From: Saccharophagus sp. K07
GTDB taxonomy: Bacteria > Pseudomonadota > Gammaproteobacteria > Pseudomonadales > Cellvibrionaceae
Assembly: GCF_014336955.1 (NCBI RefSeq)
Contig: NZ_QRAI01000006.1
Span: 62,001 to 126,000, forward strand
DNA: 64,000 nucleotides
Direction of reading: 5' to 3'
A model generated the notes under the pieces. That model saw only the letters and a list, made by a program, of their open reading frames with translations. It did no database searches and was not told where the DNA came from. Positions 1,613 to 19,303 of the stretch are shown here, piece by piece. The translations under genes were made by a program, and so were the position numbers. Within the stretch, counting starts at the first letter, position 1; the number at the start of each line of letters is the position of its first letter.

Positions 1613-1768
1613 GGTTAATTGCCCTATTGGTTATTGCATCTTTTTGTATTAGTGCACCCACGGAGACCACTGCACACGATGCCCCCGCTTTTAGCTGTAA
1701 ATAGTTGTGGTTATAAAAAAATACAGCTATGCCACATCACACCCTACACGGGCTTATAAGAACAACAG

Positions 1769-1782
1769 GTGAGAAGGCTCAC
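1769..1782. promoter_or_regulatory. CRP/Vfr-like dyad upstream of the c-heme lipoprotein
   Basis: GTGA-N6-TCAC matches the core of the CRP family operator (TGTGA-N6-TCACA) on both half-sites, but lacks the flanking T and A. It lies about 157 bases before the lipoprotein start, where a catabolite regulator could act. A single short dyad can arise by chance. Confidence 0.3.
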
Positions 1783-1914
1783 TTTATTTATGGTACTTAG
1801 ATCAAGTTTTGCGGGCGCAGAGAAAAATTTGTTAGCGAATCGTTTACAAAAGAAAAGAACAAAAAGACTTTTTCTAAATTATATGAAATTAATTTAATCA
1901 TATAAATTTAAAAA

Positions 1915-1944
1915 ATATGATAATTTTAAGATTATTTATCATAT
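1915..1944. repeat. 9-bp perfect inverted repeat in AT-rich DNA
   Basis: ATATGATAA (1915-1923) and TTATCATAT (1936-1944) are perfect inverted copies with a 12-base spacer. This could be an operator for a dimeric regulator of the lipoprotein gene. In such AT-rich DNA chance palindromes are more likely than elsewhere. Confidence 0.35.
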
Positions 1945-2095
1945 ATACGATATTACAATAATCGTTTTGAAGACTATTTTTAAATGAATTTTTGCGAAAT
2001 ATTTTTGTGTTGATGAGATTAAAGAATCTCTGCTTCGTTGGGGAAAAGAAAAATAAAAACAGCGGCTTCGGAAAGAATACGGATGAAATTGAAGC

Positions 2096-2118
2096 GCTAG
2101 AGCCGCAAAGACTCTAGC
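2096..2118 (-). terminator. Possible terminator of the nine-gene run
   Basis: GCTAGAG (2096-2102) and CTCTAGC (2112-2118) form a 7-bp stem with a 9-base loop, nine bases beyond the stop codon of the last gene of the minus-strand run. The downstream T-tract on the minus strand is weak and interrupted, so termination efficiency is uncertain. Confidence 0.4.
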
Positions 2119-2126
2119 TTGAAAAA

Positions 2127-2822: not shown

Positions 2823-2873
2823 AGATTTATCCGTTCATGTGAGCGCACAAAATGCGTTCAAAAATATGTATGG

Positions 2874-4130
2874 TTATTCCACTGCAAATACCACGTAGAC
2901 AGGTTCGCTGTGTTTGATTTGGGTCCCGGCCGCTGGCGATTGTGTGATGGCTTGACCAATCACGTATTGGCTATTGGCGCCTACGGGTCGATTGACCATT
3001 TCCATTTTTAGCCCGACCGATTTGAGCAAGCGGCGCGCGACTGATTCCGTAAAGCCGGTCACGTCAGGAACTGTGCTGGTGGGCTCTTGTGCGACAGGTT
3101 TTTGTGTGGTGACTAAATCCATTTTGACCAGCGAGGCATTGGCGATACCTTCTTTCAATTCCGCCATTTTCAGCAAATTAATCGCTTGGCCATCCGGGCT
3201 GAGCGTGCCGCGCAGTTCGACTTGAATATTTTGAATTTGATAAGGCTGTTGTTCGGAACGCAGTTGTTGATTGGCGGCGGCTACCTGTGCACCGATATTG
3301 GCGGCGATATTTTGAATTGGGCTTAGGCGCTGGCTCTCTGCAACAAACTGTTCGTTTTCCTGCTTGAGTTTGGCTTCAGCCTGTTGCGCGCGCTCCAAGG
3401 CGGCTTTTAATGACTGCGTTTCCAATTTGAGATTCTGTGTCTCAGCTTTAATGGTGCTCAATTCGCGGTCTTTGGCGCTGATCTGCAGCTGCAGATCTGT
3501 CTCCAAGGCTTTGAAGCGAATAAGCTCAGCGTTAAAAACGTCTGCCGAAATACTCAATGCCGGTTGGGTGGCAGTGGTAGCTTGTGCGATGGTTTGATTG
3601 GTGGCCTGTGCGATTGTTTGAGTATTTACAGGCTGTTTTACTTGTGTGGCTGCTATAGCGGCATCCACCGTTGAGATATTGCGCGTGGTAATGGAAGGCG
3701 CTGCGGTGCTGGCCAAGGTGCGCATTAAAACAGCTGTGGTGATATTCGGTCGCTTGCTTTGTCCAGAGAGAATGAGCGGCATACTGGATGTTTGCACAGA
3801 CGTAAAACTGTAGGCGGTGTCATCCAATTGTTCTACGTGACCGAAATCGCAGATTAACGCTTGATTGCGCGCGTCGTAGCTTAATTGCACATGTTGGGCG
3901 AGAACGCGGGTTTCTTTGACGTCTTCGCACAAACGCAAATTGGGTGCGAGTGTATCGTTGTTGGCGAGTGCGATTTTTAGGGAGAGATTGCCCTGTGCAT
4001 CGGTGGCGCCACTGGCCAAGGCCGTCCAGCTATTGGAAGCCAATTGAAAATATTCCACTCGAACTTTGGCATTGGCCAAAGGTTTTCCTTCATCAGTGAA
4101 CAGAAGCGCAAAAACTTGCAGAGATTTCAT
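2874..4130 (-). CDS. Leaderless Ig-like / coiled-coil / PASTA protein
   Basis: The 418-residue protein has an N-terminal beta-sandwich resembling carboxypeptidase-regulatory or Ig-like domains (about 1-100; GKPLANAKVRVEY, TDAQGNLSL). Then come a Thr/Ala/Gln-rich stretch with a short internal repeat (TIAQATN, about 172-190), a heptad-rich coiled coil (about 200-270) and a C-terminal PASTA domain (about 354-418; VPDVTGFTESVARRLLKSVG). There is no signal peptide. Its ATG overlaps the stop of the upstream gene by four bases, so the two are translationally coupled. The architecture looks like a spacer joining two binding modules; function unknown. Confidence 0.85.
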   Translation of the reverse strand: MKSLQVFALLFTDEGKPLANAKVRVEYFQLASNSWTALASGATDAQGNLSLKIALANNDTLAPNLRLCEDVKETRVLAQHVQLSYDARNQALICDFGHVEQLDDTAYSFTSVQTSSMPLILSGQSKRPNITTAVLMRTLASTAAPSITTRNISTVDAAIAATQVKQPVNTQTIAQATNQTIAQATTATQPALSISADVFNAELIRFKALETDLQLQISAKDRELSTIKAETQNLKLETQSLKAALERAQQAEAKLKQENEQFVAESQRLSPIQNIAANIGAQVAAANQQLRSEQQPYQIQNIQVELRGTLSPDGQAINLLKMAELKEGIANASLVKMDLVTTQKPVAQEPTSTVPDVTGFTESVARRLLKSVGLKMEMVNRPVGANSQYVIGQAITQSPAAGTQIKHSEPVYVVFAVE

Positions 4131-4780
4131 GCGGCGCTACCTGCTGTAACGGAAAGGTTGACGTGATATTGCCCATATTCTGCGCTGATCACGACAGTGG
4201 CGGCCGCTGGCAACTGGGCGTTGATTTGTAATTTGGTGGAAGCCAAACCTTGCTCATCTGTAATTAATAATGCCTGTTCCAGTGTGCTGTCGCGTAAGCT
4301 GGCAATGGAAATTCCCTGCGCAGCGGAAAGCTGAATAGACGCTGCTTCATTGAGATTGAGTTCCACAGGTACGCCAACCAAAGGTTCCCCCGCTGTATTG
4401 ATCAATTGAACCTGTATGGTATGGCTGCGCGCGCTCAGGCGTGTGTTGCTCAGGCGTAATACCGGCATGGGCAAGCCTTCGCCGGGAGGAATGGCAACGA
4501 AGCGCCCGGATAAAGTGCTGGAAATTTCCTGTGTAGAGTTTTTTTGTTTATTGGCAGTGGGCAGAATGCGCAATAAACGCGTTCCGGATTCAGTCACTGA
4601 GTTTTCCATATCCACCTGCAGCTGGAAATCCAGATAAGGCAAATGGTAGGTCGGCATAGGGCGGCCAAATGCGTCTAAGGCCGGCATTTGGCTCAGCGCT
4701 TCCTGAGCCTCGCGCACGCCATTGGCAATGGCAGTGAGTAGCTCGGCAAGGGAGTCAGCAACAAACTGCGTGTCGCTCAT
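4127..4780 (-). CDS. Leaderless protein with degenerate family helix block and Ig-like domain
   Basis: The 217-residue protein starts with a helix block resembling the local family (LAELLTAIANGVREAQEAL) but lacks the LGxxPxFY motif. A strand-rich region follows (about 45-100), then an invasin/intimin-like Ig domain (about 105-215; NTAGEPLVGVPVELNL, TDEQGLASTKL). No signal peptide. The gene is two bases from its upstream neighbour and overlaps the downstream gene by four, so it belongs to the same transcript. It looks like a family member whose second half was replaced by an Ig module; that is inference. Confidence 0.8.
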   Translation of the reverse strand: MSDTQFVADSLAELLTAIANGVREAQEALSQMPALDAFGRPMPTYHLPYLDFQLQVDMENSVTESGTRLLRILPTANKQKNSTQEISSTLSGRFVAIPPGEGLPMPVLRLSNTRLSARSHTIQVQLINTAGEPLVGVPVELNLNEAASIQLSAAQGISIASLRDSTLEQALLITDEQGLASTKLQINAQLPAAATVVISAEYGQYHVNLSVTAGSAA

Positions 4781-4782
4781 TC

Positions 4783-5724
4783 TTAATGGTCCTCATGATT
4801 TTTTTTACGGTTCAGGGCGCGGTCGCGCCGCGCCTGATCGCGTTGTTCTTGTCGTTGTTGTTCGCGTCTTTGGTTTAATGCGCGTTCGCGACTGCGCATC
4901 ATGCGTTCGAATAAATCGCCGGAACCGCCGGTTTCGCTGTTCAGGCGCTGGCGGGATCGTTCTACATAACCCCCAAAACGATCCATCGCGCCGCGAATGT
5001 CGTTGTCGCGCCGCTGCCAAAATTCATCAATTTTTTTCACGCTCTGCTGAGGTGTATTCAGCACAGCGTTAGCGCGGCTAAGGTAATTGTCCGCGGCCAT
5101 TAATTTATCTGCGCCTAATTTGCGCAGTTCTTCGCGCTCTTCGTGCAAGCCTTCGTTTGCCAATTGCTGATCCAGATCGCGAAATTGCCGCGCAGCGTCC
5201 TGAGTTTGACGACTCAGGTTTCGTAAAGGTTGAGCTGCGCGTTCCACCGGCGCTAAACGATCGCGCGCTTGCTCGCGCAATTGTTGACGCTGACGATCGC
5301 GCGCATCGAGCCAATCGGTCACAGGTTGCTGAAAATCGCGTAAGCCGGTGCGCAAAGCTGGTGTTGCTGCAGCGGGGCCAATAATGTCATAGCTTGGCGC
5401 AGTTGCCGTGGCTTGTTGTTGACGTTCTCGCCGTGCTTCCCACTGACGCAATTCCGCCTGACGTTGTGCGAAAGTTGGAACTTGAAAACGTGCAGCATCG
5501 CGGAGATCACCGCCAGTGCCACCGGAAATCAAACTGCGCATTCTGTTTTCCAATTGCTGCCGTTGTTGCAGCAATTGATTTAATTGGGGAGATAAAAGCG
5601 AATTGTTGGCTACATCCGTTTGTGTTGGCGCAATAGGATTCCCAGCATTTTGCGCCTGCGGTGAAACGCCCGCGCCCGTTGATCCAGGGCGGGCGACTCG
5701 ATCACGCCAGGAATTGCCGGGCAC
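4783..5724 (-). CDS. Arg/Gln-rich coiled-coil protein of the nine-gene run
   Basis: This 313-residue protein is dominated by Arg, Gln, Asp and Glu and should form long helices or coiled coils (about 55-110 and 130-310). A Pro/Ala/Asn-rich start precedes them. The C-terminal 40 residues are almost entirely Arg, Gln, Glu and Asp and end in KKNHEDH. There is no signal peptide, membrane segment or catalytic motif that I recognise. It starts three bases after the stop of the upstream family gene. A scaffold or nucleic-acid-binding role is possible from composition alone. Confidence 0.75.
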   Translation of the reverse strand: MPGNSWRDRVARPGSTGAGVSPQAQNAGNPIAPTQTDVANNSLLSPQLNQLLQQRQQLENRMRSLISGGTGGDLRDAARFQVPTFAQRQAELRQWEARRERQQQATATAPSYDIIGPAAATPALRTGLRDFQQPVTDWLDARDRQRQQLREQARDRLAPVERAAQPLRNLSRQTQDAARQFRDLDQQLANEGLHEEREELRKLGADKLMAADNYLSRANAVLNTPQQSVKKIDEFWQRRDNDIRGAMDRFGGYVERSRQRLNSETGGSGDLFERMMRSRERALNQRREQQRQEQRDQARRDRALNRKKNHEDH

Positions 5725-5727
5725 CGT

Positions 5728-6282
5728 TTATGCCTCTTTTGCGCTGGCCGCGATCATGGCGCGAATGCGTTCCTCCAGCAATGCAGGCGCTGGTACCGGC
5801 ACGAGCTTGGTGCGCATCAGCGAGCTGCCTTCTGCGGAGTACTGGTATTTAGACGCATAGCTCGCGCTGACCGTGGAAACGCGCATGGAGGCAGAGGCGG
5901 AGAAAAATCCCACGCTGCCTTTTACATTCGCATTAACCGTGGTACTCGAACGATTGAAATTCGTCTCGCGCGACATGGAAATCGAAATTTTGATTTCAAT
6001 CAGCGTGTCGACGAACTGGTAAAAATTGGGCGTAAAACCCAATTCCAGCAAACTGTATTGTTTGCCGTCACCGAGGGGTACCAGCATATTGCGCTCGGGC
6101 GTGGCCGGAGAAGCGGGTAGGGACCCGTCCTCCGGTTCCGGGTCTGGAGCGTAGCCCGCCATCATGCGGGCAATTTTCATTGACACCAGATCCAGTTCGT
6201 ATTGAGCTTCCGCAATGCTGACCCCGAGAGTTTTGATCATCTCGGGGAAAGGTGCATTAAGCAGTTCTGTGCCTATGGACAT
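5728..6282 (-). CDS. Leaderless paralogue-family protein (184 aa)
   Basis: A compact member of the local family. The N-terminal block (about 5-45) has EMIKTLGVSIAEAQYELD, then LLELGFTPNFYQFVDTLIE (about 80-100). A Ser/Thr/Asn-rich variable section follows (about 105-140), and the C-terminal block has SASYASKYQYSAEGSSLMRT and VPVPAPALLEERIR. No signal peptide or membrane helix. It is most similar by eye to the next gene upstream (6304-7047). The C-terminal pattern recalls what I remember of DUF2589 proteins, which I could not verify. Function unknown. Confidence 0.85.
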   Translation of the reverse strand: MSIGTELLNAPFPEMIKTLGVSIAEAQYELDLVSMKIARMMAGYAPDPEPEDGSLPASPATPERNMLVPLGDGKQYSLLELGFTPNFYQFVDTLIEIKISISMSRETNFNRSSTTVNANVKGSVGFFSASASMRVSTVSASYASKYQYSAEGSSLMRTKLVPVPAPALLEERIRAMIAASAKEA

Positions 6283-6303
6283 ATAAGTGTCTCCGCCGAG
6301 GCG

Positions 6304-7047
6304 TTATGGAGTTGCCAGACGTCTATCCAAATCGGCCTGACGGCGTTTTGCTTCGTTCTCCATCAAATCGCGAATGCGTTGTTCCAGCATGGGCGGTGGT
6401 GGCACCGTGCTGAGTTTGGTGCGCAGCAGGCTCGCGCCTTCGGCTGAGTAGGAATATTTGGACGCGTAAGTCGCGTCCACTTGCGAGGTGCTGACCTGTG
6501 ATGCTGTGCCCGAGCGTGTATTGATCCCGAACAGGCGTTTACTCAAATTAAAACCGCTGCTTTTGCTGTTGCTGGTATTGGTTTGTGAGGTTTTGCTGGT
6601 GCGGGAATATTCGCTGGTGCGGGTAATTTTGATGGCGATTTTGACTTCAATAATGGTGTCGACAAATTGATAAAACACCGGCGTAAAACCGAGTTCCATC
6701 ATGGAAACGCGAGTGGGAACGCGAATGGTATCGGATTCTTGTTTGCCGCTGGAAATTTTACTCAATACATCGTGCAATTTAATGGAATCACCACCGGTCA
6801 AGGCGTCGTCTACTGCAGCGTAGGCCTGAGCTTCTTTTACGGTCATATATTCATAACCAAAAAATACCCGGCTGTCGTCGAAGCTGACATTGCCTTCTTC
6901 GTCAAATACAGTGGTGAGACCGCCCATCATTTCCGCAACATTAATGGAGTTCTCGTCCAATTTGTATTGCGCTTCGGCGATGGCGAATGCCATCTGCCGG
7001 ATCATATCCCCCATGGGAACATTTAACAGTTCCTGACCGATTGCCAT
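6304..7047 (-). CDS. Leaderless paralogue-family protein (247 aa)
   Basis: The N-terminal block (about 5-40) reads MIRQMAFAIAEAQYKLDENS. A longer inserted segment follows (about 45-110), then LGFTPVFYQFVDTIIEVKI, a Ser/Thr/Asn-rich variable part with SRTSKTSQTNTSNSKSS, and the C-terminal block VDATYASKYSYSAEGASLL with VPPPPMLEQRIRDLM. It ends in a charged tail. No signal peptide. The gap to the upstream gene is 74 bases, the largest in the run apart from none other above 51, so an internal promoter here cannot be excluded. Confidence 0.85.
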   Translation of the reverse strand: MAIGQELLNVPMGDMIRQMAFAIAEAQYKLDENSINVAEMMGGLTTVFDEEGNVSFDDSRVFFGYEYMTVKEAQAYAAVDDALTGGDSIKLHDVLSKISSGKQESDTIRVPTRVSMMELGFTPVFYQFVDTIIEVKIAIKITRTSEYSRTSKTSQTNTSNSKSSGFNLSKRLFGINTRSGTASQVSTSQVDATYASKYSYSAEGASLLRTKLSTVPPPPMLEQRIRDLMENEAKRRQADLDRRLATP

Positions 7048-7121
7048 AGAAAATTCCTCATTTAATTATTTTGGACTGGCGATGAATCGCTATGCCGATT
7101 TTTATGAAATAAAAAATGAAA

Positions 7122-7589
7122 CTACGAAATAGGTTTCTCATATTGCCGCTTGATCAATTGCGTAAATACGTCCGGCGCTGGTAGCGACACCAAACGCGCC
7201 GCGATAGAACTCGCACCTTCTGTCGAGACAGAAAATTTGCGTGCGTAGGAAACATCGATGGAGGCCGCCGCCATAAAAACTCCGTAATTGACGCCCGCTT
7301 GCACGCCGACTGCCACAGAGGTTTCCGTGGATTCGGTCATGGTGAAGCTCAATTTGGCTTCCACGGTCGCTTCGGAAAACGAATAAAAGCTAGGCATAAA
7401 GCCCAGGCTTAACAGGTTGTAAGTTTCATCACCAATTTTTACTTCAGTGGCAGCCATGGTTTTGGCCAGTTCCACCGAATTGGTGTCCAAAGCGAATTGC
7501 GCCTGAGCAATGGCGAGGCCGAGTTTTTCAATGATCTGCGGCAGCGGCGCTGTTACCAGCGCTCTTGTTACCGCAACGGATTCGGCCAT
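7122..7589 (-). CDS. Leaderless paralogue-family protein, minimal form (155 aa)
   Basis: The shortest family member, so it probably shows the minimal domain. The N-terminal block has PLPQIIEKLGLAIAQAQFAL and LDTNS; the middle has LLSLGFMPSFYSFSEATVE; the C-terminal block has IDVSYARKFSVSTEGASS and VSLPAPDVFTQLI. There is an alternating hydrophobic, strand-like middle with a Gly/Ala/Val-rich section. Its ATG overlaps the stop of the upstream OmpA-domain gene by one base (TAATG), indicating coupled translation. Function unknown. Confidence 0.85.
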   Translation of the reverse strand: MAESVAVTRALVTAPLPQIIEKLGLAIAQAQFALDTNSVELAKTMAATEVKIGDETYNLLSLGFMPSFYSFSEATVEAKLSFTMTESTETSVAVGVQAGVNYGVFMAAASIDVSYARKFSVSTEGASSIAARLVSLPAPDVFTQLIKRQYEKPIS

Positions 7590-9352
7590 TATTCACCTTC
7601 CTTATTGAGGAATTCGCGAATGGTTTCCAAAAATTGCGGTGGCGCTGGGATGGATACCAAGCGCGCCGAAATCGAGGAGTTGCCGGTGACATTCATTTCG
7701 AATTGCCGCGCGTAACGCACATCCAGTGATGCGCCGACAGCAACTGCACGATTGCCGGAATTTTGCCGCGTCAAACTGGAGCTGCGCGTGCGGGAAAATT
7801 GCGTAGTTACCGTAACACCGGATGTGCCGGACAGACTGATGTCGCGATTACTGCTGGTAACCAATGTCAATTGGAACTCGTCGCCTTTGCGATTAACCGT
7901 TACGACGTTAGCGCTCGCCGATGCTTGTAAATCAGCAGAGGCGTGACCGTTGATATCGTCGGCCAGATTTTTTGCGTAGGCTTCGGGAGAGTTGGCCGCA
8001 AAGGAACCCGCAGCAGTACCGCGGAATGGGAAATTAGTGCCTTCGATAGTGACGGATTTGCCGGACAGATTTAACGGTGACGGACGGAATAAATGGATAA
8101 AGCCGTTCTCATTGCCGGTATCACCGCGTTTGTCGGGGGTAACGCCATTTAAATTTGGGCCGCCCGCACGTGCGTGCACGAAAACCCAATGCGCGGTGCG
8201 ACCCGGAGTCGTAATGTCCACTTTGCGGAAGTTTGGATTGTCGCGACCTCGTGTATCGCCGTTATCTGCGGCTGCTCTATCACCGCGAGAAGGGCGCACT
8301 GTAATTAAATTACTTGGCGCTCCATTGGCAATCAAAATGGAACGCACTTCGTTAGCGCGGTTGTTTCCCAATTGAGCGTTGAGTGCATCTGAATTGGACG
8401 CATACACCTGGCGATCGGCAAAACCCTCGATTTCAACTGCAAAATTCAACTCGCGCATTGCTTGCGCGAGGTTTCGCAATGATTCATAAGAGTTGGGATT
8501 GACGTCGTGTCTGCCGGTTTCAAAAAGTAGCTGCAAGACCGGGGCATTTGGCGCTATGTGGCGAGTGTTATATCCCTGTGCGGCGACAGTACTGGCAACA
8601 TGAGCAGCATAAGCTGCAAGGTCCGCTTGAGCGGTAGTGCTCGCACTGGTTGCTGGCGAGTCGTCCAGGGTGTAATCGGTCGCTTCATTTTTGCCAACCC
8701 GAATAATTCCGCGGTCATGCCCGCCGCTAAGGAAAGCAACCGTGCGTGGAGTCGTTTTGACTTCGCTGTCAGATGCATCGGTTTGTATATCCAAATCGGA
8801 ACCTTGCAATTGATACAGCACGCGATCGATGCCTGTGCCATCGGTTGTGGTCAAGGCATTTTGCAAATTGCGAATTCGTTCGGCAGGAGACGAGCCGGTC
8901 AACGCAAAATTGCGTCCGCCAACCACCAGTGCACCATTGGATGCTGTGGTAATTCGGACATTGGCTTCGCGAGTTTCTGTGGTAGTGCTGGAACCACTTT
9001 CGCTACTGGATTCGCTTTCGCTGCTATCGCTGGAGTTGTTGCTGTTATCGCTATAAGAGCCGTTGAGATTGAGACCTAGGCTCGTGTCTTTTTGGACACG
9101 CAGGCTCAATTGCAGGGAGCAGGTAATATCCGCGTGTTGGTAGTGATAAAACGCTGGAGAGAGGCCGAGGTCGAGTAGGGTTCTGCCGCCGAGGCCTTCG
9201 CGCGGTTCGATAAATTCTGCAATTTGCTGCACGGAATTTTCGTCCAGTGCGCGCTGTGCTTCGGCGATACCGAGCCCGAGGCTTTTAATGAACTCCGCTA
9301 CGCTGGCGTCCGCCAAAACCTGTCCAGGAGTCAAACCGTCGTAATCTGCCAT
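7589..9352 (-). CDS. Paralogue-family protein with inserted OmpA-like domain (587 aa)
   Basis: The N-terminal family block (about 12-75; GLGIAEAQRALDENS, LGLSPAFY) and the C-terminal block (about 545-585; LDVRYARQFEMNVTGNSS, VSIPAPPQFLETIR) flank about 450 extra residues. The insert includes a Ser-rich segment (about 100-128) and an OmpA/MotB-like domain (about 270-382; LLFETGRHDVNPNS, EIEGFADRQ, NNRANEVRSILIANGA). Such domains normally bind peptidoglycan in the periplasm, but there is no signal peptide. The ATG at 9352 is preferred over 9364 because GGAGG sits six bases before it. Confidence 0.85.
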   Translation of the reverse strand: MADYDGLTPGQVLADASVAEFIKSLGLGIAEAQRALDENSVQQIAEFIEPREGLGGRTLLDLGLSPAFYHYQHADITCSLQLSLRVQKDTSLGLNLNGSYSDNSNNSSDSSESESSSESGSSTTTETREANVRITTASNGALVVGGRNFALTGSSPAERIRNLQNALTTTDGTGIDRVLYQLQGSDLDIQTDASDSEVKTTPRTVAFLSGGHDRGIIRVGKNEATDYTLDDSPATSASTTAQADLAAYAAHVASTVAAQGYNTRHIAPNAPVLQLLFETGRHDVNPNSYESLRNLAQAMRELNFAVEIEGFADRQVYASNSDALNAQLGNNRANEVRSILIANGAPSNLITVRPSRGDRAAADNGDTRGRDNPNFRKVDITTPGRTAHWVFVHARAGGPNLNGVTPDKRGDTGNENGFIHLFRPSPLNLSGKSVTIEGTNFPFRGTAAGSFAANSPEAYAKNLADDINGHASADLQASASANVVTVNRKGDEFQLTLVTSSNRDISLSGTSGVTVTTQFSRTRSSSLTRQNSGNRAVAVGASLDVRYARQFEMNVTGNSSISARLVSIPAPPQFLETIREFLNKEGE

Positions 9353-9373
9353 TCTGGCCTCCAATTAAACGAG

Positions 9374-9985
9374 TTAAATACCCAGTACTGGCGCGGCGCC
9401 AGTATTGGGCAGCTTGATGGATTCCAAGGAGCGCGCTTGGGCTTGATCAACCTGCTCCGGGCGCACTACAAAATATTTATGTTTTTTCTGTAAGGCCAGC
9501 AGGCGCGATTTATCCACGGAGAGTCCACGTTGTAGCCAGTGCAATAATTCTTCGGCCAGCGGCAATATACCTTTGCCGGCACATTCAATTGCAGCGCGCA
9601 ATTTTTCCAGGGCCAGGTCTCTATCGCCGGATTTCAAAGCGTTGATGCCCCAGCGCTCCAATACAGAACCGCGATCCTTTTTGTGCAGCTGAAGATCACT
9701 GTTTAACGATTGGTGATGGGCATCGGCGTTTTGGCAAAAATCCATTACTTCGCGATAGGAATCTGTCAGCTCCAGGCTTTCCAATACGCACTGGGTGTAA
9801 TGGCGAAAAAATACTTCCGGCGCTTTGCAAGAAACCGCCATGCGAATGGCTTCGCGATAATGACGCAAGGCTTCGTCATGACGGCCTTTCAACGCCATGA
9901 CTTTGCCGTACTCGGCGATGCTGAAATGCATCTCATGGATTTTTCGTTGACGAGCGTTAGCCGCTGAGTCAGTCGACTCCTGCAT
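9374..9985 (-). CDS. TPR-like helical protein
   Basis: The 203-residue, all-helical protein has a tetratricopeptide-like signature (about 15-55; GKVMALKGRHDEALRHYREA) and a second similar pair further in (about 108-140; NALKSGDRDLALEKLRAAIE). TPRs mediate protein-protein contacts, so it may be an adaptor or chaperone for the neighbouring family proteins. There is no signal peptide. It starts nine bases after the upstream gene and is second in the run. Partner and function are not known. Confidence 0.75.
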   Translation of the reverse strand: MQESTDSAANARQRKIHEMHFSIAEYGKVMALKGRHDEALRHYREAIRMAVSCKAPEVFFRHYTQCVLESLELTDSYREVMDFCQNADAHHQSLNSDLQLHKKDRGSVLERWGINALKSGDRDLALEKLRAAIECAGKGILPLAEELLHWLQRGLSVDKSRLLALQKKHKYFVVRPEQVDQAQARSLESIKLPNTGAAPVLGI

Positions 9986-9994
9986 AGTTATTCC

Positions 9995-11095
9995 TTAGTG
10001 TTTGAGAAGTTCCACAGAGGCGCCAGCGCGTTCCAATGCATCGCGAATAACGCGCGCCTGAATTTCGGGATAGGCGTTGGGCAGAATTTCCGGAGCACGC
10101 CTGAAAGTGTGTGGAATTCCAAACGCATTCAAAACGGCATTGACTGCAGCGGTTTGCGCGCAAGCCGTGATCTTTAATCCAAGAGCTTGAAAAGTAATTA
10201 ATTCGGCCGCGACGGTTAATTGTGCTTGTGCAAGGGCTTCGAGAATGCACGGAACTTCGCGGCTTGGAATGCTTTCCAGCAGAGTAACAGGCGCGCTGGC
10301 GACGACTTCATCAGCTATGTCCTGCGGGATTTCGACAATGTCTTCCAATACGCGACGTTGTTCGTTGCTCAGAGGGGCATTGGGTGCCTGCTGCAAAACC
10401 ACATCAAAACGCAAAAAATCCTGCTGAATAATTCGCAGTGCGCCATTGGTTTTATGGCGTTGCCAGATGGGATCGATCGCGCTGCGTTCGACACCAGTTG
10501 CAATCAAACCGCTATTAGCACTCAGTGGAATTCCCGCTGCTGTTAAATCTTCCAGAAGACGTTTTTGCACAATCGTTGGGCATTCACCGAGAAAAACATC
10601 GTAGCGGGCATCGGCTTGCGGGGCGGCGATCATATCGACGGTATCGCCCATAAATTCCCTAAAGGCATTCACGGTTGCTTCACTAACCGAACCGAGTGCC
10701 ATGCCCGGTGGTTGGAGCAACATTTTGCTGGCTTCTTCTTCGCTCATGCCAATAAATTTGGAAAGCTTGCGCGTGGCTTCCGGCAGTTGGCTGGCATCTT
10801 TTAAATAGAGCGCAACGTCGAACAGTTCGTTGTTTTTTGGAATGGCGCTGGTGTCGTCAATAACGGTTACTTCGTAACCAATATCGGTCAGCAGGCGGGA
10901 GAGCTGTTCTGCGATTTTTTGTTCAACTTTATCCACCAGCACGGCTGGTGCGCGATACAGGCAGTTGATGACTTCTGCGGCGCTGATGCCCAGTCCTTTT
11001 GCCACGGCGGCTGCCGATGTCAACGTGGCGGTACCTACGGACTGAATCAATACGCCATGAGTCCCCGACGGGGTAAGAGAGTCGGAATTTTGCAC
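9995..11095 (-). CDS. Multi-repeat L7/L12-like (ClpS-fold-like) protein
   Basis: First gene of the run, 366 residues, with a GTG start and AGAGGGA six bases before it. It contains four or five repeats of a strand-helix-helix-strand unit that resembles the C-terminal domain of ribosomal protein L7/L12. Examples are VLIQSVG ... EVTVID (about 14-80), FDVALYLKD ... VDMIAA (about 91-158) and the last unit LKITACAQ ... RDALERAGASVELLKH. The spacing and the closing L-x-x-x-GA-x-V-x-L pattern are what suggest this fold. No signal peptide. Function unknown; a structure prediction would decide the fold. Confidence 0.75.
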   Translation of the reverse strand: MQNSDSLTPSGTHGVLIQSVGTATLTSAAAVAKGLGISAAEVINCLYRAPAVLVDKVEQKIAEQLSRLLTDIGYEVTVIDDTSAIPKNNELFDVALYLKDASQLPEATRKLSKFIGMSEEEASKMLLQPPGMALGSVSEATVNAFREFMGDTVDMIAAPQADARYDVFLGECPTIVQKRLLEDLTAAGIPLSANSGLIATGVERSAIDPIWQRHKTNGALRIIQQDFLRFDVVLQQAPNAPLSNEQRRVLEDIVEIPQDIADEVVASAPVTLLESIPSREVPCILEALAQAQLTVAAELITFQALGLKITACAQTAAVNAVLNAFGIPHTFRRAPEILPNAYPEIQARVIRDALERAGASVELLKH

Positions 11096-11235
11096 GTGTT
11101 CCCTCTTTATTAGATTTATTGATAAGGGTTTCTGCTTGGTTTGTCCAATATTTCGGCTAACACATTTAAATTGTTGCTGTAAAGATTCACAAGTGAATGA
11201 GTTGTTGATATGTATTTGTTAGCGCGACGCAGCGG

Positions 11236-11264
11236 AGTATATGCGTTCTCCGTTTTTCTCACAA
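11236..11264 (-). promoter_or_regulatory. Candidate sigma-70 promoter of the nine-gene run
   Basis: On the minus strand TTGTGA (11264-11259) is followed after exactly 17 bases by TATACT (11241-11236). These match the -35 and -10 consensus at four and five of six positions. The site would give a leader of about 130 bases before the GTG at 11095. No start site is proven. Confidence 0.4.
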
Positions 11265-11528
11265 GACTCGCTTTTGAGGACGGTTCAGAATGGTGATGGG
11301 GAGGAGGTGTCGTTGTAATGGTCATTATGTTTGTTTAACAGTTTAAATATTCTTTTGAAGATATTTGTTTAGTTGTCGTGAGGTGAAATGTCAAGGCAGA
11401 TGCAGGAATTGTCGCTGAAGGTTTTTGAGAGTATTGCAAACTCACGACGCTGTGTGAGGCGGCGTCTCGAAAAATTTGCTGAGAAAAAGATTGATGCGCT
11501 GGTCGATGTCGGAAATTCCACGCAAAAA

Positions 11529-11560
11529 ATAAGGGCGGCCTGATGCCGCCCTTATGCCAA
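11529..11560 (-). terminator. Rho-independent terminator of the LamG lipoprotein gene
   Basis: ATAAGGGCGGC (11529-11539) and GCCGCCCTTAT (11545-11555) form a perfect 11-bp stem with a five-base loop. On the minus strand the stem is followed directly by a run of T. It lies 22 bases beyond the lipoprotein stop codon and separates that gene from the nine-gene run. The remainder of 11,096-11,576 holds the run's promoter and no convincing gene. Confidence 0.9.
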
Positions 11561-11576
11561 TTATATTGGTCCATCT

Positions 11577-13211
11577 TTATGGCGAAATGTCCTCCCGCTC
11601 CCCACTAAATCCAATATTTTGAAACTCCACTTGTCCATTGGAGCCTGTGAGTATGGCGCGAATGTAGCGTACATTGTCGACGTCTACGGCAAAATCCTCC
11701 GCCAGAATATCTTCAAAACCGATTTGAGGTTCGACGCTGATTTGCGATATCAGGGTTTCGGATGAGTCGTAAAAGAGGAATTGAATAGCGTCCACATCGT
11801 AATTTTCTTCGTTGAAGTTCCAGAAATGAATCGCGTTCAGCTCGTAATCCGCTTGCAGATCGAAATAAAAGATTGTCTCTCCTTCTGCCCAAACGTGGCT
11901 GGATGTGGTGTGACGGTCAAACACCGTGGGTGAAGCCGCGTCGATTACGCTCGCAAGCGAGCTTTCTTTTAAGGCATCGGGTTGTTCCAGGGTGACGGTA
12001 ATTTCCGGAGCTTTCAGGTATACCGAGTCGTTATCGCAATCGTCGAAAACACCGTTGTTATCGATGTCCACCGGTTCTTCGGTATCAATATCGTATTTTT
12101 CGCTCAGATAATTCCACACTGAATTGTATTCAGTTGTCGTCAGCGTTCTGTTGTATACGAGCAATTCCGCAATATCTCCGGCGAAGGATTCACTGCCGTC
12201 GTGAGTGCCGCCAATATAGGTGGTGCCTAGATCCAGCGGTGCGGGGGTGGTCGTGTCCGTCGTCAGAGTGCAGCCTGTGCGGATGGAGCTGCCGGAGGCT
12301 GTGACATTTACACCGAGGATTTGCGGCCCTTGTTGTTTGACATTTTCTGGTGAAAGCAACCACGTGCCACTGCTGATGGAGCGCGCTTTAACAAAGGGTT
12401 TGCTGGCGGCAAGTCCGACTGCAAAACCTGTTTTGGTGAACTCGCCAGCAGTTTCCGCTCCGGTTCCGAATAAATGCCCCTGGTGATCATTGGAGCGGTA
12501 GACAGCAAATACCGAGAGCGGGATGGATGCGCTGGAGAACAGGTCTTCCGCCAAAACCAGTCGATCATCAATACCATCGAATCGCAGTGCGGGGCGATTG
12601 TCGATGGCGTTCGCTACCAGGAGTGGTTGTTTGGCTGGATCGGCTTGGGTCGCTGAGCCCAACTCGCTTGACCAAGCGCCGATTGGGCCAGAGCCGCTCA
12701 GTTGATCTGCTGCGAGCGCCAGTACAAGTCCTTCAGTTACAGGAATGCCACTCGAAGAACTGCTTGAGCTGGATGAGCTGCTCGAACTGGAAGATGACGA
12801 ACTCGAGCTTGAAGACGAACTGCTGGATGAAGATGAGCTGCTACTGGATGACGAGCTTGAGCTGGATGAACTGCTAGAACTCGACGATGAGCTACTGGAA
12901 ATAATGATCCCAGAAGAAGAGCTGCTGGAGGACGAAGAACTGGAGCTGTTGGAAGACGAAGAACTGGAGCTGCTTGAACTGCTGGACGAAGTTGATGAAG
13001 TGGATGAACTCGCTCCTGATGAACTCGATGACGCACTGGAGATTCCGGATGACGACGAACTACTGCTCGATGAACTGGCTGGTGGCTGTGGAGGAGGGGA
13101 GGAGTTTGAACTGTTGCTGCTGGAGTCGCACGCCTGTAACAACAAGGTTAAGCAAACCAATCCAACGCTTAACAAGGGTGGGCGTTGGAGCAAGGAATTT
13201 TTCTTCTGCAT
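11577..13211 (-). CDS. Poly-Ser-linked LamG-type surface lipoprotein
   Basis: The 544-residue protein has a lipoprotein signal ending in LLQAC (Cys28), then one of the longest serine linkers in the window (about residues 46-154, nearly all Ser). A concanavalin/LamG-3-like domain follows (about 155-375; LRFDGIDDRLVLAEDLF, GDIAELLVYNRTLT). Next come a Ca-binding-like acidic loop (DIDNNGVFDDCDND) and a C-terminal beta domain (about 405-540) reminiscent of discoidin-type carbohydrate-binding modules. No catalytic residues are evident, so a surface binding role is likely. It is transcribed away from fleS and has its own strong terminator. Confidence 0.85.
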   Translation of the reverse strand: MQKKNSLLQRPPLLSVGLVCLTLLLQACDSSSNSSNSSPPPQPPASSSSSSSSSSGISSASSSSSGASSSTSSTSSSSSSSSSSSSSNSSSSSSSSSSSSGIIISSSSSSSSSSSSSSSSSSSSSSSSSSSSSSSSSSSSSSSSSSSSSSSSSSGIPVTEGLVLALAADQLSGSGPIGAWSSELGSATQADPAKQPLLVANAIDNRPALRFDGIDDRLVLAEDLFSSASIPLSVFAVYRSNDHQGHLFGTGAETAGEFTKTGFAVGLAASKPFVKARSISSGTWLLSPENVKQQGPQILGVNVTASGSSIRTGCTLTTDTTTPAPLDLGTTYIGGTHDGSESFAGDIAELLVYNRTLTTTEYNSVWNYLSEKYDIDTEEPVDIDNNGVFDDCDNDSVYLKAPEITVTLEQPDALKESSLASVIDAASPTVFDRHTTSSHVWAEGETIFYFDLQADYELNAIHFWNFNEENYDVDAIQFLFYDSSETLISQISVEPQIGFEDILAEDFAVDVDNVRYIRAILTGSNGQVEFQNIGFSGEREDISP

Positions 13212-13453
13212 TTTGAGCCTCGGTCGACGTCAGTTAATAAATGAATAACTGGAAAACCACCACTGGAATCGAGACGGAACGCGCGGTCAGGCGTTTCGGT
13301 GGCAGACCATCATAGAAAACTCATTGCCGGTGAATCGTGGGATAACTGACATAAGAGAAGGTATTTGTGAGTCGGCACGGAGAAAAAAGCCAAATCTTTG
13401 ACTTTTATTTTTATTGGGTATTTATCTTTTTGATTTGTAAGGGATTTATTTTG

Positions 13454-13469
13454 TGGCACCGCGCTTGCA
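13454..13469 (+). promoter_or_regulatory. Sigma-54 promoter of fleSR
   Basis: TGGCAC-CGCGC-TTGCA matches the -24/-12 consensus at every conserved position. Transcription would begin near 13,481, about 40 bases before the fleS start. It fits the known scheme in which FleQ with RpoN drives fleSR. The rest of the 13,212-13,521 spacer also holds the divergent promoter of the LamG lipoprotein; I see no gene in it. Confidence 0.9.
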
Positions 13470-13521
13470 TTTGGGCTCTGTTGAATAGACAACACTGACG
13501 GATTTTCGCCAGGAGATGTTC

Positions 13522-14760
13522 ATGTCCAAGGCTGTGCCTTTTATTGACGCCGAAAATGCCAGAGTGCCCGAACCCGTTTTAGCGCCTACACCCTCTGAAA
13601 CAGAAGTGCGCAATCTCGATGGGGCGATGGACTTTTTTCAGCGCACGTCGCGCCAGTTATCCAATGCCTATTTGTTGTTGGAAGGTAAGGTCGCGCAGCT
13701 GACTCGCGAGTTGAATGAAGTGTCCGCGCAAAAAGACGAAGAGCTGGAAAAGAAAAACCGCTTGGCCAGCCGGATGCAGGCAATGCTGGATTTTTTACCC
13801 GGTGGCGTGATTGTGCTGGATGCACGCGGAATTATTGTGCAAAGCAATCCCGCTGCGCGGACGCTGCTCAATCACAGGCTTGACGGTGAACTTTGGCGCA
13901 GAGTGATTTCCGTTTGTTTTGTGCCCAGTCGCGACGACGACTTGGACTTGTGCACAGTCAGCGGCCGCTGGGTCAGTCTGGCAACGGCGTCCCTCGATGA
14001 AGAGGGGCAGATTATTTTGTTGACCGACCAGACGGAAACCCGCCGTTTGCAACAGCAGGCCAATCGTCATCAGCGCTTGTCGGCGATGGGCAAAATGGTT
14101 TCAGCGCTGGCGCATCAGATTCGCACGCCGCTGTCGGCAGCCATTCTCTATGCCAATCATTTATGTGCGGATTCTATTTCTGAAGAGCGGCGCAAAGTCT
14201 TCGCCGGAAAATTATTGGGCCGTTTGAATCATATGGCCGAACAAGTCAAAGACATGCTGTTGTTCGTGCGCAATGAATTACCGCTCAACGATGTGATTTC
14301 TCTGCAGGATCTCGAAGCCGGTCTGCGTGCCGCGACGGAAGTGCCTTTGGCTTCGGGGAAAAATCGCTGCATTTGGCAGAACGCCGTGCCGCAAGAGTTT
14401 TTGCGCTGCAATCGCGAAGCTTTGATCGGCGCTTTGTTGAATCTGGTCAACAACGCGATTGAAGCCAATCCGCAAGGTGTGAAATTAAAAATCTCGTTCT
14501 GTCGCACTGCCTTGAAAGGTGAGTCCGCCGTTGCCATAGCGGTTGCGGACAACGGCCCTGGAATGTCACCGGAGCAACTCAGCGCGGCGCAGGAAGTGTT
14601 TTACACCACCAAGCCACAAGGCACGGGCCTGGGTTTGGCGGTGGTGAAATCCGTCACCCTGGCACACGGCGGAGAATTCCGTTTGCAATCCCGCGCAGGT
14701 GAGGGCACCTGCGGAATTTTGACGATTCCTTTAGTGGAATCCTACGAAACCGCACATTGA
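13522..14760 (+). CDS. fleS: Flagellar two-component sensor histidine kinase FleS
   Basis: Soluble kinase (412 residues) of the FleS/FlrB type that phosphorylates FleR to turn on middle flagellar genes. It has an N-terminal helical region, a PAS-like domain (about 85-175), an H-box with His198 (LAHQIRTPLS), and a HATPase domain with NLVNNAIEAN, DNGPGMSP and GTGLGLAVVKS. No membrane segment, as expected for this family. The ATG at 13522 is preferred over 13516 because AGGAG lies six bases before it. fleQ, normally upstream, is not in the window; the divergent neighbour is the LamG lipoprotein instead. Confidence 0.93.
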   Translation: MSKAVPFIDAENARVPEPVLAPTPSETEVRNLDGAMDFFQRTSRQLSNAYLLLEGKVAQLTRELNEVSAQKDEELEKKNRLASRMQAMLDFLPGGVIVLDARGIIVQSNPAARTLLNHRLDGELWRRVISVCFVPSRDDDLDLCTVSGRWVSLATASLDEEGQIILLTDQTETRRLQQQANRHQRLSAMGKMVSALAHQIRTPLSAAILYANHLCADSISEERRKVFAGKLLGRLNHMAEQVKDMLLFVRNELPLNDVISLQDLEAGLRAATEVPLASGKNRCIWQNAVPQEFLRCNREALIGALLNLVNNAIEANPQGVKLKISFCRTALKGESAVAIAVADNGPGMSPEQLSAAQEVFYTTKPQGTGLGLAVVKSVTLAHGGEFRLQSRAGEGTCGILTIPLVESYETAH

Positions 14761-14807
14761 TTTTGGCGCACCTGCGCAAAGCGCATTAGGTTTACCGGAG
14801 AGAATTC

Positions 14808-16361
<1,554 letters not shown>

Positions 16362-16662
16362 GGGGCAAAAGGCGTCAATCTTCCGACGTTTTTCCGGCTT
16401 TTAAAACGCAGCGTCAGGGCTGGGCAAAAACTAAGAAAAAACCGTTCTTAAAAAAGCCAAAAATTTTTCCAGGGGATACTTTTTATTTTCAAATTACATG
16501 GGCATACTCCGCCCGAAAGCTGCCGGGCGGCTATGCTGCGCTGCGGTAGATTCGGAGTCTCACAGACAGAGGATTCCCAAATACCACAGCGGGAAAGCGT
16601 TAAAAACTGCTCCAGCGGCTTTCAGGTTGACTGAAGATTTCATCGCTATAGGAGTTTGACGT
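16362..16662 (+). other. Intergenic region after fleR
   Basis: No gene seen. A GC-rich hairpin, CCGCCCG (16509-16515) with CGGGCGG (16524-16530), has no T-tract after it. A weaker stem followed by TTTTTCC lies just after the fleR stop (about 16369-16395) and may end the fleSR transcript. The promoter of the following small gene should lie here. Confidence 0.4.
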
Positions 16663-16848
16663 ATGGGCGTAGAGGTGCTTGATTCAACTCTCGAAGTCGT
16701 AGACGAGGCACTGGTTGAAGAGAGGTTTGATGACGACGCTGCTGTAAAACCTCCAAAATCCGACATAGACGCACGTCGTCGTCTGGAGGATAAATTGGAG
16801 CAATTACGCTTAGAGAAAGAACTGCGCGAGTACGACTTCGATATTTAA
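16663..16848 (+). CDS. Small acidic PA3496-family protein
   Basis: 61 residues, preceded by AGGAG nine bases before the ATG. The acidic N-terminal half is followed by a charged helix (DARRRLEDKLEQLRLEKEL) and ends in EYDFDI. This matches my recollection of the PA3496 family, annotated as putative envelope-integrity proteins; its molecular role is not established. It is not a classical flagellar gene although it sits between fleR and fliE. A terminator follows immediately, so it is its own transcription unit. Confidence 0.75.
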   Translation: MGVEVLDSTLEVVDEALVEERFDDDAAVKPPKSDIDARRRLEDKLEQLRLEKELREYDFDI

Positions 16849-16862
16849 AGCATTCCCTATCC

Positions 16863-16907
16863 AATCTGGGCGGCGCTAACTACCGAAAAGATCGCCCAGA
16901 TTTTTTG
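16863..16907 (+). terminator. Rho-independent terminator after the PA3496-like gene
   Basis: AATCTGGGCG (16863-16872) pairs with CGCCCAGATT (16893-16902) in a 10-bp stem with a 20-base loop, ending in a run of T. It starts 14 bases after the stop codon and insulates fliE from upstream transcription. The rest of 16,849-17,178 holds the fliE promoter and no gene. Confidence 0.8.
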
Positions 16908-17066
16908 TTCTGCGGCTCGGCCCTCCCGGCCGCAGAATCAATTTCCTTTATCTAGACGCCCTTATTTAATTCCATCCCCTCAATGCCTGCAGTAAGCGGT
17001 TTAACCAGTCGCTGAATATTTATTTTCTTCTCCTTCATTCTCATCCGAATACCCACGTCCCGTTTT

Positions 17067-17082
17067 TGGCCCGCATTCTGCA
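17067..17082 (+). promoter_or_regulatory. Sigma-54 promoter of the fliE operon
   Basis: TGGCCC-GCATT-CTGCA keeps the invariant GG and GC at the correct 10-base spacing, with C in place of A at one position and C in place of T at another. It lies 97 bases before the fliE ATG. FleR/RpoN control of fliEFGHIJ is known in Pseudomonas. Confidence 0.75.
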
Positions 17083-17178
17083 ATTACCCCCTCAGAGAAC
17101 CGCATAACGCCGGTTTTTTGGCAGTCCGCTGAGGACTGGTTGAGTTTCAGGATTCACTAAACGTCGAGAAAGTAGGCC

Positions 17179-17535
17179 ATGGTAGATCGCGTTGATATCA
17201 ATCGCTTGTTGTTGGAAATGCGTGCACTTAAAGCTCAGAGTCAAGCCTTTGGCGGGGTGGAGAAAGTCGGCCAGTCGCAAATTGCGACTCAGCGGCCGGA
17301 GCAGGTCAACGGGCCGCGTTTCAGCGACCTGTTTTCTCAGGCGGTCAATAAAGTGAATTCGGTGCAGCAGGCATCCAACGCAACTTCCGCGGCTTATATG
17401 CGCGGTGATCCGAATGTGGATATTACCGACGTGATGATTGCCTCCCAAAAATCCACCGTTGCCTTCCAGGCCATGACCCAGGTGCGCAACAAAGTGGTGG
17501 AGGCCTACAAAGACGTAATGAATATGCCGATTTAA
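17179..17535 (+). CDS. fliE: Flagellar MS-ring/rod junction protein FliE
   Basis: The 118-residue protein ends with the FliE signature ([20 protein letters not shown], then [13 protein letters not shown]). FliE forms the junction between the MS ring and the proximal rod and is among the first substrates of the flagellar export apparatus. There is no signal peptide, as expected for a type III substrate. It opens the fliEFGHIJ group, 61 bases before fliF, under the sigma-54 promoter at 17067. Confidence 0.96.
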
Positions 17536-17596
17536 GGCGTTGTTACAGTTTTGCAGTTTTCGAATTCCGATTTTTCGAATTAATGAGCGGTAATCT

Positions 17597-19303
17597 ATGG
17601 TGGCAAAAGATGTAAGTGGCGACTTCGAGAGCTCTGCTCCAGCTGCTGCAGAGAAAAAAAGAAGCGCTTCGGACTTGTTTGAGGGTTTAAACAACCTCAA
17701 TTTGTTGCGTCAGGCGGCCTTGATGATCGGACTGGCCGCCAGTGTCGCCATCGGTTTTTGGGTGGTGTTGTGGACCCAGGGAGAAGAGTACCGCCCCTTG
17801 TACGGCAGTCTCGATCGTCTGGATTCCGCCGATGTGGTGCAAATCCTCGAAACCAACGATATCCGCTACAAAGTCGATCTAGCCACTGGCGCTTTGCTGG
17901 TGCCGACCGACGAACTTGCCAAAGCCCGCCTTAAACTGGCCGAAGCCGGCATTCCGGGCAAAAGTTCCGTCGGCTATGAATTGCTCGACCAGGAACAGCC
18001 GCTGGGCACCAGCCAGTTTATGGAAGCTACGCGTTTTCGCCGCGGTCTGGAAGGTGAGCTCGCCCGAACGATTTCCAACGTCCACGCCGTGCGTTCCGCA
18101 CGCGTCCATTTGGCCATTCCCAAAACCTCGGTTTTTGTGCGCGATGGCCGTGAACCCAGCGCCTCGGTTTTTCTCGAACTCTATCCAGGGCGCAAACTCG
18201 AGCCGCATCAAATCAAAGGCATTACCAACTTGGTGGCCTCCAGCGTTCCGGAAATGAAACCGCAGAACGTCACCCTGGTGGATCAGCGCGGTTCGCTGAT
18301 TTCCCTGGGATCGGAAGACGAAAAACTCATAGCCGCTGCACAGCATCTCGACTACACCCGCAAAATCGAAAACGACATGATGATGCGCGTCCGCCGTCTG
18401 TTGGGACCTGTGGTAGGCGAGGACAAATTCAAAGCGGAGATCAGCGCCGATATCGATTTCACCGAAATCGAAGAGGCTGGCGAAACCTTCAACCCCGATT
18501 TGCCCGCGCTGCGCAGTGAAGCCGTGGTGGAAGAGCAGCAAATTGGCAGCGCGACTCCCGGCGGTATCCCCGGAGCTCTGACCAACCAACCGCCCGCAAC
18601 CGGCTTGGCGCCGGAACAACTGCCAAATAATGCTAACGGCACTGAAGCTCCCGTGCCTTCCAACAGCCGCAGTCAGGCCACGCGCAATTACGAGCTGGAT
18701 CGCACAGTAAGCTACACCAAACACCAAAAAGGCCGCTTGCGCCGCCTGACGGTGGCAGTGGTAGTCGATGACAAGCTGACGTTCGACGAGCAGGGTCGTC
18801 CGGTGCGTATTCCTTGGACCGATCAGGAATTGGAACGCCTGTCTATACTGGTACGAGATGCCGTGGGATTTTCCGCCGCACGCGGTGACAGTGTGAATGT
18901 TCTGAACGAACGCTTTGTCGATCTGCCGCTGACAGGTGACTATGCCGAAAAATGGTGGGAATCCGACGCAGCCAAATTCTGGCTCAAGCAAGCGGCTGGG
19001 CTGCTCATCATCCTGGTGCTGCTGGTAGGTTTCCTGCGGCCCTTGTTGAAGAGTCTCTCGGCAGCCGGCGCGCGTGCCAAGGAGGAGGAAGAAGCTCGTC
19101 AACTTGCCGCGTTGCAAGCTGCCGGAGTCGACTCCTTCGATTCCCTTTCTGATGAAACTGTAACCCTTACCGGCGGCGATGCTCTGGCGTTGCCAAGCCC
19201 CGAGGAAAGCTACGAGCAACAACTCAACGCAGTTAGAGGCTTGGTGGCGGAAGATCCCGGCCGGGTCGCCCAAGTGATTAAACGCTGGATCAATGAAGAA
19301 TGA
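17597..19303 (+). CDS. fliF: Flagellar MS-ring protein FliF
   Basis: 568 residues with two membrane helices (about 38-58 and 458-478) flanking a large periplasmic part. The YscJ-like ring-building motifs (YRPLYGSLD, EVQIL-type repeats, RVHLAIPKTSVFVRD) and the C-terminal cytoplasmic tail that binds FliG are present. It builds the MS ring in the inner membrane, the platform for export and the rotor. Its stop overlaps the fliG start by four bases, so the two partners are translationally coupled. The length is normal for the family. Confidence 0.97.
   Translation: MVAKDVSGDFESSAPAAAEKKRSASDLFEGLNNLNLLRQAALMIGLAASVAIGFWVVLWTQGEEYRPLYGSLDRLDSADVVQILETNDIRYKVDLATGALLVPTDELAKARLKLAEAGIPGKSSVGYELLDQEQPLGTSQFMEATRFRRGLEGELARTISNVHAVRSARVHLAIPKTSVFVRDGREPSASVFLELYPGRKLEPHQIKGITNLVASSVPEMKPQNVTLVDQRGSLISLGSEDEKLIAAAQHLDYTRKIENDMMMRVRRLLGPVVGEDKFKAEISADIDFTEIEEAGETFNPDLPALRSEAVVEEQQIGSATPGGIPGALTNQPPATGLAPEQLPNNANGTEAPVPSNSRSQATRNYELDRTVSYTKHQKGRLRRLTVAVVVDDKLTFDEQGRPVRIPWTDQELERLSILVRDAVGFSAARGDSVNVLNERFVDLPLTGDYAEKWWESDAAKFWLKQAAGLLIILVLLVGFLRPLLKSLSAAGARAKEEEEARQLAALQAAGVDSFDSLSDETVTLTGGDALALPSPEESYEQQLNAVRGLVAEDPGRVAQVIKRWINEE

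Follow-up and report, generated by a model that had tools for sequence, protein, structure and literature searches.

A protein of five predicted L7/L12-like units heads a strictly ordered ten-gene cassette present in several bacterial phyla

The L7/L12 C-terminal domain (CTD) fold is known mainly from the ribosomal stalk and from ClpS. In the 64,000-nucleotide stretch of Saccharophagus sp. K07 that we analyzed (hereafter the window), an open reading frame on the minus strand at 9995-11095 encodes a protein that the initial annotation took for a tandem series of such domains heading an operon. Why would a single chain carry this fold several times, which genes accompany it, and does it act as L7/L12 or ClpS does? 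The gene, which we call L12R, has 366 codons and a GTG start with AGAGGGA upstream. An AlphaFold2 model built from an alignment of 36 sequences (pLDDT 93.5, pTM 0.86) contains five consecutive units, R1 to R5, at the upper end of the four to five repeats first claimed. R1 (residues 13-80; 10856-11059), R2 (residues 92-159; 10619-10822), and R4 (residues 229-299; 10199-10411) are canonical, with the full β-α-α-β-α-β order, while the second helix is missing from R3 (residues 165-224; 10424-10603) and R5 (residues 304-365; 10001-10186). The strand-helix-helix-strand unit proposed earlier was thus right about the repeats but not about their order, and the proposed L-x-x-x-GA-x-V-x-L ending occurs as a literal string only in R5.

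Structure comparison matched R2 to the L7/L12 CTD 1ctf (Z 10.6, rmsd 1.5 Å over 67 residues), R1 to 8yeq (Z 10.3), and R4 to 6vlz (Z 9.8), and ClpS (7d34) matched R1 with Z 9.8. When the L12R family profile was compared with all PDB sequences, there were 11 matches at E≤10, of which the top eight were bL12 (E 1.2e-4 to 0.11; best 1.2e-4 on R1 and 2.6e-4 on R4) and the other three were unrelated, with E of 0.35 or worse. The Pfam model PF00542 matched the window protein with E 7.7e-5 and 23.4 bits, under its 25.9-bit cut-off, with the best stretch at residues 334-363 in R5, and it matched 10 of the 36 family members at E≤0.05. The units also resemble one another: with hhalign, seven of the ten pairs were recognizably homologous at about 74-97% (R1-R2 96.7%, R1-R4 96.3%, R2-R4 95.5%, R1-R5 92.5%, R4-R5 89.1%, R3-R4 88.8%, and R2-R3 74.5%), no recognizable homology was found for R1-R3 (23%), R3-R5 (6.4%), or R2-R5 (3.0%), and ten control comparisons gave at most 2.5%. 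Together, the model, the PDB profile search, and Z-scores of about 10 bear out the L7/L12- and ClpS-like fold first suggested; a fold unlike both in all repeats was not the outcome. L12R is predicted with high confidence to be a single chain of five units of the L7/L12-CTD/ClpS fold.

L12R opens a cassette of ten genes that spans 2127-11095 of the window, all on the minus strand, with intergenic gaps of -4 to 74 bp, as in a compact operon. Beside it lies TPR (9374-9985), a 203-aa tetratricopeptide-repeat protein matching PF07719 above the cut-off, followed by four paralogues: OMPA (7589-9349), with an OmpA domain (PF00691, E 1.2e-11) between its two conserved halves; P155 (7122-7589), the shortest; P250 (6304-7047), well conserved and 49% identical to a Bacteroidota copy; and P185 (5728-6282). 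COIL (4783-5724) is charged, of low similarity, and helix-rich by reading, and its best Pfam match (E 0.16) is not significant. IG217 (4127-4780) joins a divergent paralogue N-terminus to a weak Ig-like domain (Big_1, E 0.0014, below the cut-off), and PAS400 (2874-4130) has a coiled-coil-like middle and a C-terminal PASTA domain (PF03793, E 6.7e-8). The last gene, PAS225 (2127-2822), is a paralogue that also ends in PASTA (PF03793, E 5.6e-5). After it lies a weak terminator-like hairpin (2096-2118, minus strand), of a kind not in excess over shuffled sequence; promoter-like sites were fewer than shuffles predict, and terminator-like sites were within the expected range. The surroundings include two lipoprotein-like genes with long poly-serine linkers, one on each side (11577-13211 and 2-1612), and, from 13516, genes for a sensor/regulator pair and for flagellar proteins that read as FliE/FliF/FliG-like.

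To see how widely this arrangement occurs, patterns derived from the TPR profile were searched against one genome per species in 84,980 species, which returned at least 40 loci. Of these 40, 32 have the complete set of ten in the same order and on one strand, in line with the operon of L12R and a paralogue family that the initial annotation had described. Four more (L046, L027, L047, and L054) keep this order as far as the contig reaches, two (L057 and L058) are collinear with ORFs that the profiles did not recognize at the COIL position and, in L058, also at that of PAS400, the cassette of L035 is broken, and L062 is a spurious TPR-profile match. With L12R as its own query, a TPR gene adjoins in all seven loci outside the window (L002-L008), and two further complete, divergent cassettes (L108, 3613-14077, and L109, 1892-13761) were found. 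Hosts include Gammaproteobacteria, Alphaproteobacteria, a betaproteobacterium (Ideonella), Bacteroidota, Acidobacteriota, and Gemmatimonadota; the search for L12R beside its paralogue family in other genomes thus succeeded across several phyla, and in several of them L12R opens a ten-gene cassette with a strict gene order. Within the family of the source genome, L12R is present in 2 of 144 genomes, and within the order in 7 of 390, source genome counted. Some cassettes carry additional genes after PAS225: a Gly-rich gene of 471-476 aa with no Pfam match above the cut-off in L108 and L109, and an extra subunit paralogue in L059 (17810-18736, 309 aa) and L060 (18657-19610, 318 aa). The gene downstream of the L038 cassette was considered as a match to the L108 accessory gene and ruled out, as it is an enoyl-CoA hydratase.

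We then asked how the cassette came to be so scattered. A tree built with FastTree from six concatenated proteins of 39 cassettes (the window and 38 loci, excluding L035 and L062) clusters five Rhodobacterales cassettes with those of Marinobacterium and Saccharospirillum (support 1.0) and places the two Cellvibrionaceae cassettes far apart, namely that of the window and that of Marinibactrum halimedae (L060, identical to L002 of genome G059). In another genome of the same genus, G142, the flanking genes are there and the cassette is absent, the aligned flanks being 1,182 bp apart vs 9,966 bp in the window. The stretch between them matches no cassette profile, and there is no L12R or P155 match elsewhere in G142. 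Gain in the window and loss in G142 are both compatible with this comparison and cannot be told apart. In the other same-genus genome, G141, the flanking genes are on different contigs. The L108 and L109 cassettes sit between smpB and the tmRNA gene ssrA, and beyond ssrA L109 carries a tyrosine integrase. GC content does not mark the cassette (51.7% vs 51.6% for the rest of the window), positions 1-20000 of the window hold no tRNA, and no L12R match was found on plasmids. Two mini-cassettes (L077, 11992-14422, and L078, 4553-6539), each of two subunit-like proteins and one coiled-coil-like protein, have no L12R in the stretch read; one of them, a diverged subunit locus, is on a 303-kb Sphaerotilus plasmid. 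A sparse distribution, a tree at odds with taxonomy, a cassette-free site in the same genus, and two cassettes lying between smpB and ssrA mark the cassette as mobile, and its distribution pattern requires horizontal transfer.

Six of the ten genes form one subunit family: OMPA, P155, P250, P185, PAS225, and, distantly, IG217. Their shared core consists of an N-terminal helix with A-x-AQ-x-x-LD, a strand pair with LGF-x-P-x-FY, a variable middle, and a C-terminal strand followed by V-P-x-P. The OmpA domain is inserted in the variable middle, and the PASTA and Ig-like modules follow the core. IG217 joins only via some members (hhalign E 3.9e-6 to the mixed set and 8e-9 to PAS225, against 0.018 to P250 and 0.049 to P185). 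By eye, an OmpA-like insert is present in 35 of 39 OMPA proteins (the window and 38 loci) and missing in L057-L060, L108, and L109. Since the first subunits of L057 (Acidobacteriota) and L058 (Gemmatimonadota) do without it, OmpA is an optional module. At the Asp of the peptidoglycan-binding pair of OmpA, 7 of the 35 inserts have Ser. No Pfam family was coherently matched by 36 subunit sequences, and for P155, whose model is poor (pLDDT 67.5), a first search of the PDB found nothing below E 3.1 and a second gave Z of at most 3.1.

A probable distant relative of the subunits is DUF2589. A mixed subunit set compared with 15 DUF2589 sequences by hhalign gave 89.2% (E 2.2e-6, 156 columns), with a score of 46.1 vs at most 14.3 in 30 column shuffles. 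By subfamily, values were 86.6% for P155, 55% for P250, 8.7% for PAS225, 4.8% for IG217, and 0.6% for P185. At E≤0.1, none of 36 single subunit sequences matched DUF2589, and the source genome was also without a match. A distant relation to DUF2589 is probable on these profile comparisons and not settled, since an earlier comparison with only 5 DUF2589 sequences gave 0.9% and single subfamilies range from 0.6% to 87%. The other candidate, Trypco2, reached at most 16.9% by hhalign, with one Pfam match (E 0.0075) among the ten window proteins, values that do not support a relation of the subunits to Trypco2.

Genes next to the cassette offer a further clue. Peptidoglycan hydrolases of four classes adjoin 12 of 39 cassettes (the TPR-profile loci minus L062), these 12 being spread over seven tree clades. 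An M15+PG_binding_1 enzyme lies 415 bp upstream in L032 and L037; CHAP enzymes lie about 20 bp upstream in L048 and L044, and upstream on the other strand in L023 and L053 (the L023 match being under the cut-off); Amidase_2 enzymes lie 1-70 bp downstream in L033, L036, L039, L040, and L041, with SH3 as well in L040 and L041; and a GH108+PG_binding_3 enzyme lies downstream in L059, past one extra paralogue. For L044, L053, L036, L037, L039, and L041, the class follows from similarity to a neighbor that was itself Pfam-scanned. As an aside, L033 carries an odd fusion of Amidase_2 and CobU (cobinamide kinase) in one ORF right after the cassette (16615-17646), and L036 and L039 carry similar ORFs. 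A set of 19 related genomes holds 18 Amidase_2 and 6 CHAP matches in total, so chance adjacency is unlikely for these two classes, which are the ones that the counts cover. The hydrolase queries were drawn from adjacent genes and the flanking genes were Pfam-scanned only in part, so the absence of matches elsewhere in the flanks is biased. By this query search, 27 of 39 cassettes have no adjacent hydrolase, there is none up to 7.9 kb downstream in L110 (from the L060 genome), and the window cassette has no match within 64 kb; since the window cassette lacks such a neighbor, the link is recurrent and not universal.

Taking these results together, we tentatively propose that L12R and TPR act as cytoplasmic adaptors that assemble the six paralogous subunits into a peptidoglycan-directed particle, which would be deployed with an exchangeable endolysin-like enzyme. 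A hetero-oligomeric particle is favored because the cassette brings together candidate adaptors, a building block in six versions, peptidoglycan-binding modules of two kinds, and an exchangeable endolysin. Under this proposal, L12R and TPR would stay cytoplasmic and serve in docking and assembly, and L12R would present several variant adaptor faces, with one chain binding several of the six subunits; from its modeled fold, an adaptor role for L12R is plausible. The subunits, with their conserved core of a long N-terminal helix, a β-hairpin, and a C-terminal strand and helix, and with differing inserts or tails (OmpA, PASTA, Ig-like, and Ser/Thr/Asn-rich loops), would form one hetero-oligomeric particle that could attach to peptidoglycan via OmpA and PASTA. 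It would be released or deployed with a signal-less wall hydrolase, whose gene adjoins the cassette in some lineages and presumably lies elsewhere in the rest. The particle is inferred, since the P155 model is poor, and so are its binding to peptidoglycan and its release. The bolder version of the proposal, that the cassette encodes a mobile, hetero-oligomeric nanoparticle of a new class, lacking signal peptides and directed at peptidoglycan, in which the five-domain, stalk-fold adaptor L12R arranges six subunits and endolysins are interchangeable, and which may serve as a weapon or a means of release with no kinship to phage tails, strikes us as possible and rather doubtful.

The OmpA and PASTA modules and the adjoining hydrolases would also suit a structure that remains on the wall of the producing cell, such as a scaffold or storage body, with the hydrolases opening the wall locally and L12R serving as its cytoplasmic foot or chaperone. 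A simple hydropathy scan of the ten window proteins speaks against such a structure and for the proposed particle: it reached a maximum of 1.38, with no membrane-spanning or exported component seen, and the neighboring hydrolases likewise have no signal-like hydrophobic segment. We regard an own-wall structure as unlikely. A point against the proposed particle is that among 15 seed homologues one L12R (2.04) and one IG217 (2.13) lie beyond the usual soluble range.

A phage or tailocin module that survives as a remnant or has been domesticated, with a tail- or collar-like ring and lysis genes, would account for the endolysin-type enzymes and for the integrase and ssrA site of L109, and two further resemblances point the same way: the viral model A0A516MP19 (178 aa) resembles P155 (E 8.8e-6, TM 0.47), the sole significant match to viral structures, and OMPA matches two PHROGs of unknown function via its OmpA region (E 2.9e-8 and 8.1e-6). 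On the other hand, L12R, P155, P250, and P185 have no sequence relative in 50,697 phage records, L12R, TPR, and P250 have none in viral contigs, 36 subunit sequences match no coherent PHROG family, and none of the ten proteins matches a tail, capsid, or terminase protein. With no sequence relatives in phage records or viral contigs, a phage origin was set aside as improbable.

L12R could also be a decoy ribosomal stalk that captures translation GTPases, or a ClpS-type adaptor that hands substrates to the Clp protease, in keeping with its fold identity and sequence similarity to L7/L12 and with the recruiting roles that had been suggested for it. Both roles are weakened by the residues that ought to carry them. 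At K65, K70, R73, and K84 of L7/L12, the basic positions that meet translation GTPases, R1 has K/R in 7, 11, 1, and 0 of 36 sequences, and R2 has K/R in no more than 12 of 36 in either register; these positions are thus absent or in the minority in R1 and R2. The net charge of αA-αB varies from +1.6 (R1) to -1.6 (R2) and -2.7 (R4). The N-degron site of ClpS is formed by D35, D36, and H66 (PMC9810338). A ClpS-like DD in the β1-αA loop occurs in 0 of 36 L12R sequences for R1, 1 of 36 for R2, and 0 of 36 for R4, and residues 40-52 of R1 hold no His counterpart to H66 in any of the 36. No Clp or translation gene is among the ten. With these comparisons negative, we consider a translation-factor trap or degradation adaptor improbable. 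Since L12R has no bL12 N-terminal domain, scores under the Pfam cut-off, and conserves neither the factor-binding residues in R1 and R2 nor the degron site, it is a member of neither L7/L12 nor ClpS, the ligand-binding residues examined being missing. Least probable of all is an anti-phage or conflict system with DUF2589-like subunits as adaptor domains, for which the probable DUF2589 relation (89%), the patchy, mobile distribution, and a weak match to Trypco2 (an adapter domain of conflict systems; PMC10907252) speak, and against which stand the lack of a meaningful PADLOC match for the ten proteins (best E 9.5e-4 to a Cas7 model for P155 and 0.0018 to ZorB for the OmpA region), the lack of an NTPase, nuclease, protease, or nucleotide-signal enzyme match among them, and a Trypco2 value of at most 17% by hhalign.

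Neither the L12R protein nor the cassette is described by an entry in Pfam, NCBIfam, PHROGs, or PADLOC or in the open-licence literature searched, and no library match or search explains the ten-gene unit as a whole. What sets it apart is that the L7/L12-CTD fold, in five copies per chain, is fixed at the head of a unit that crosses phyla. Specific predictions that can be tested follow from the gene order, the set of six paralogues, and the way in which wall hydrolases of different kinds have been recruited more than once. The cassette may also give DUF2589 its first context, as the open-licence literature searched names that family in a single paper, which states no role for it.

Several known systems help to place the cassette. 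L12R shares with bL12 (PF00542) the β-α-α-β-α-β fold, at 1.5-1.9 Å over three units, and detectable sequence similarity; it differs in having five units per chain, in having no N-terminal dimerization domain or hinge (R1 starts at residue 13, with four units after it), in lying apart from ribosomal genes, and in not conserving the factor-binding basic residues in R1 and R2. With ClpS, it shares the fold of R1 and a possible adaptor role, whereas it has no D35/D36/H66-like site, fuses five units, and returned no ClpS among its PDB sequence matches. The subunits resemble DUF2589 (PF11655) in their profile match and in forming tandem paralogue sets, as AF0414-AF0417 do (PMC3949148), but single subunits have no Pfam match to it and the DUF2589 loci compared span only a few kb. 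For release, Type 10 secretion, the endolysin-based release of large cytoplasmic complexes (for Yersinia entomophaga, see PMC10847048), is similar in that, in 12 of 39 loci, signal-less wall hydrolases of several classes lie beside genes for large signal-less proteins, and different in that no holin or spanin was identified for the cassette (a holin match in a neighbor of L108 reached only E 0.064) and most cassettes have no hydrolase adjacent. Among the release routes that we considered, Type 10 secretion is the nearest known one for signal-less complexes.
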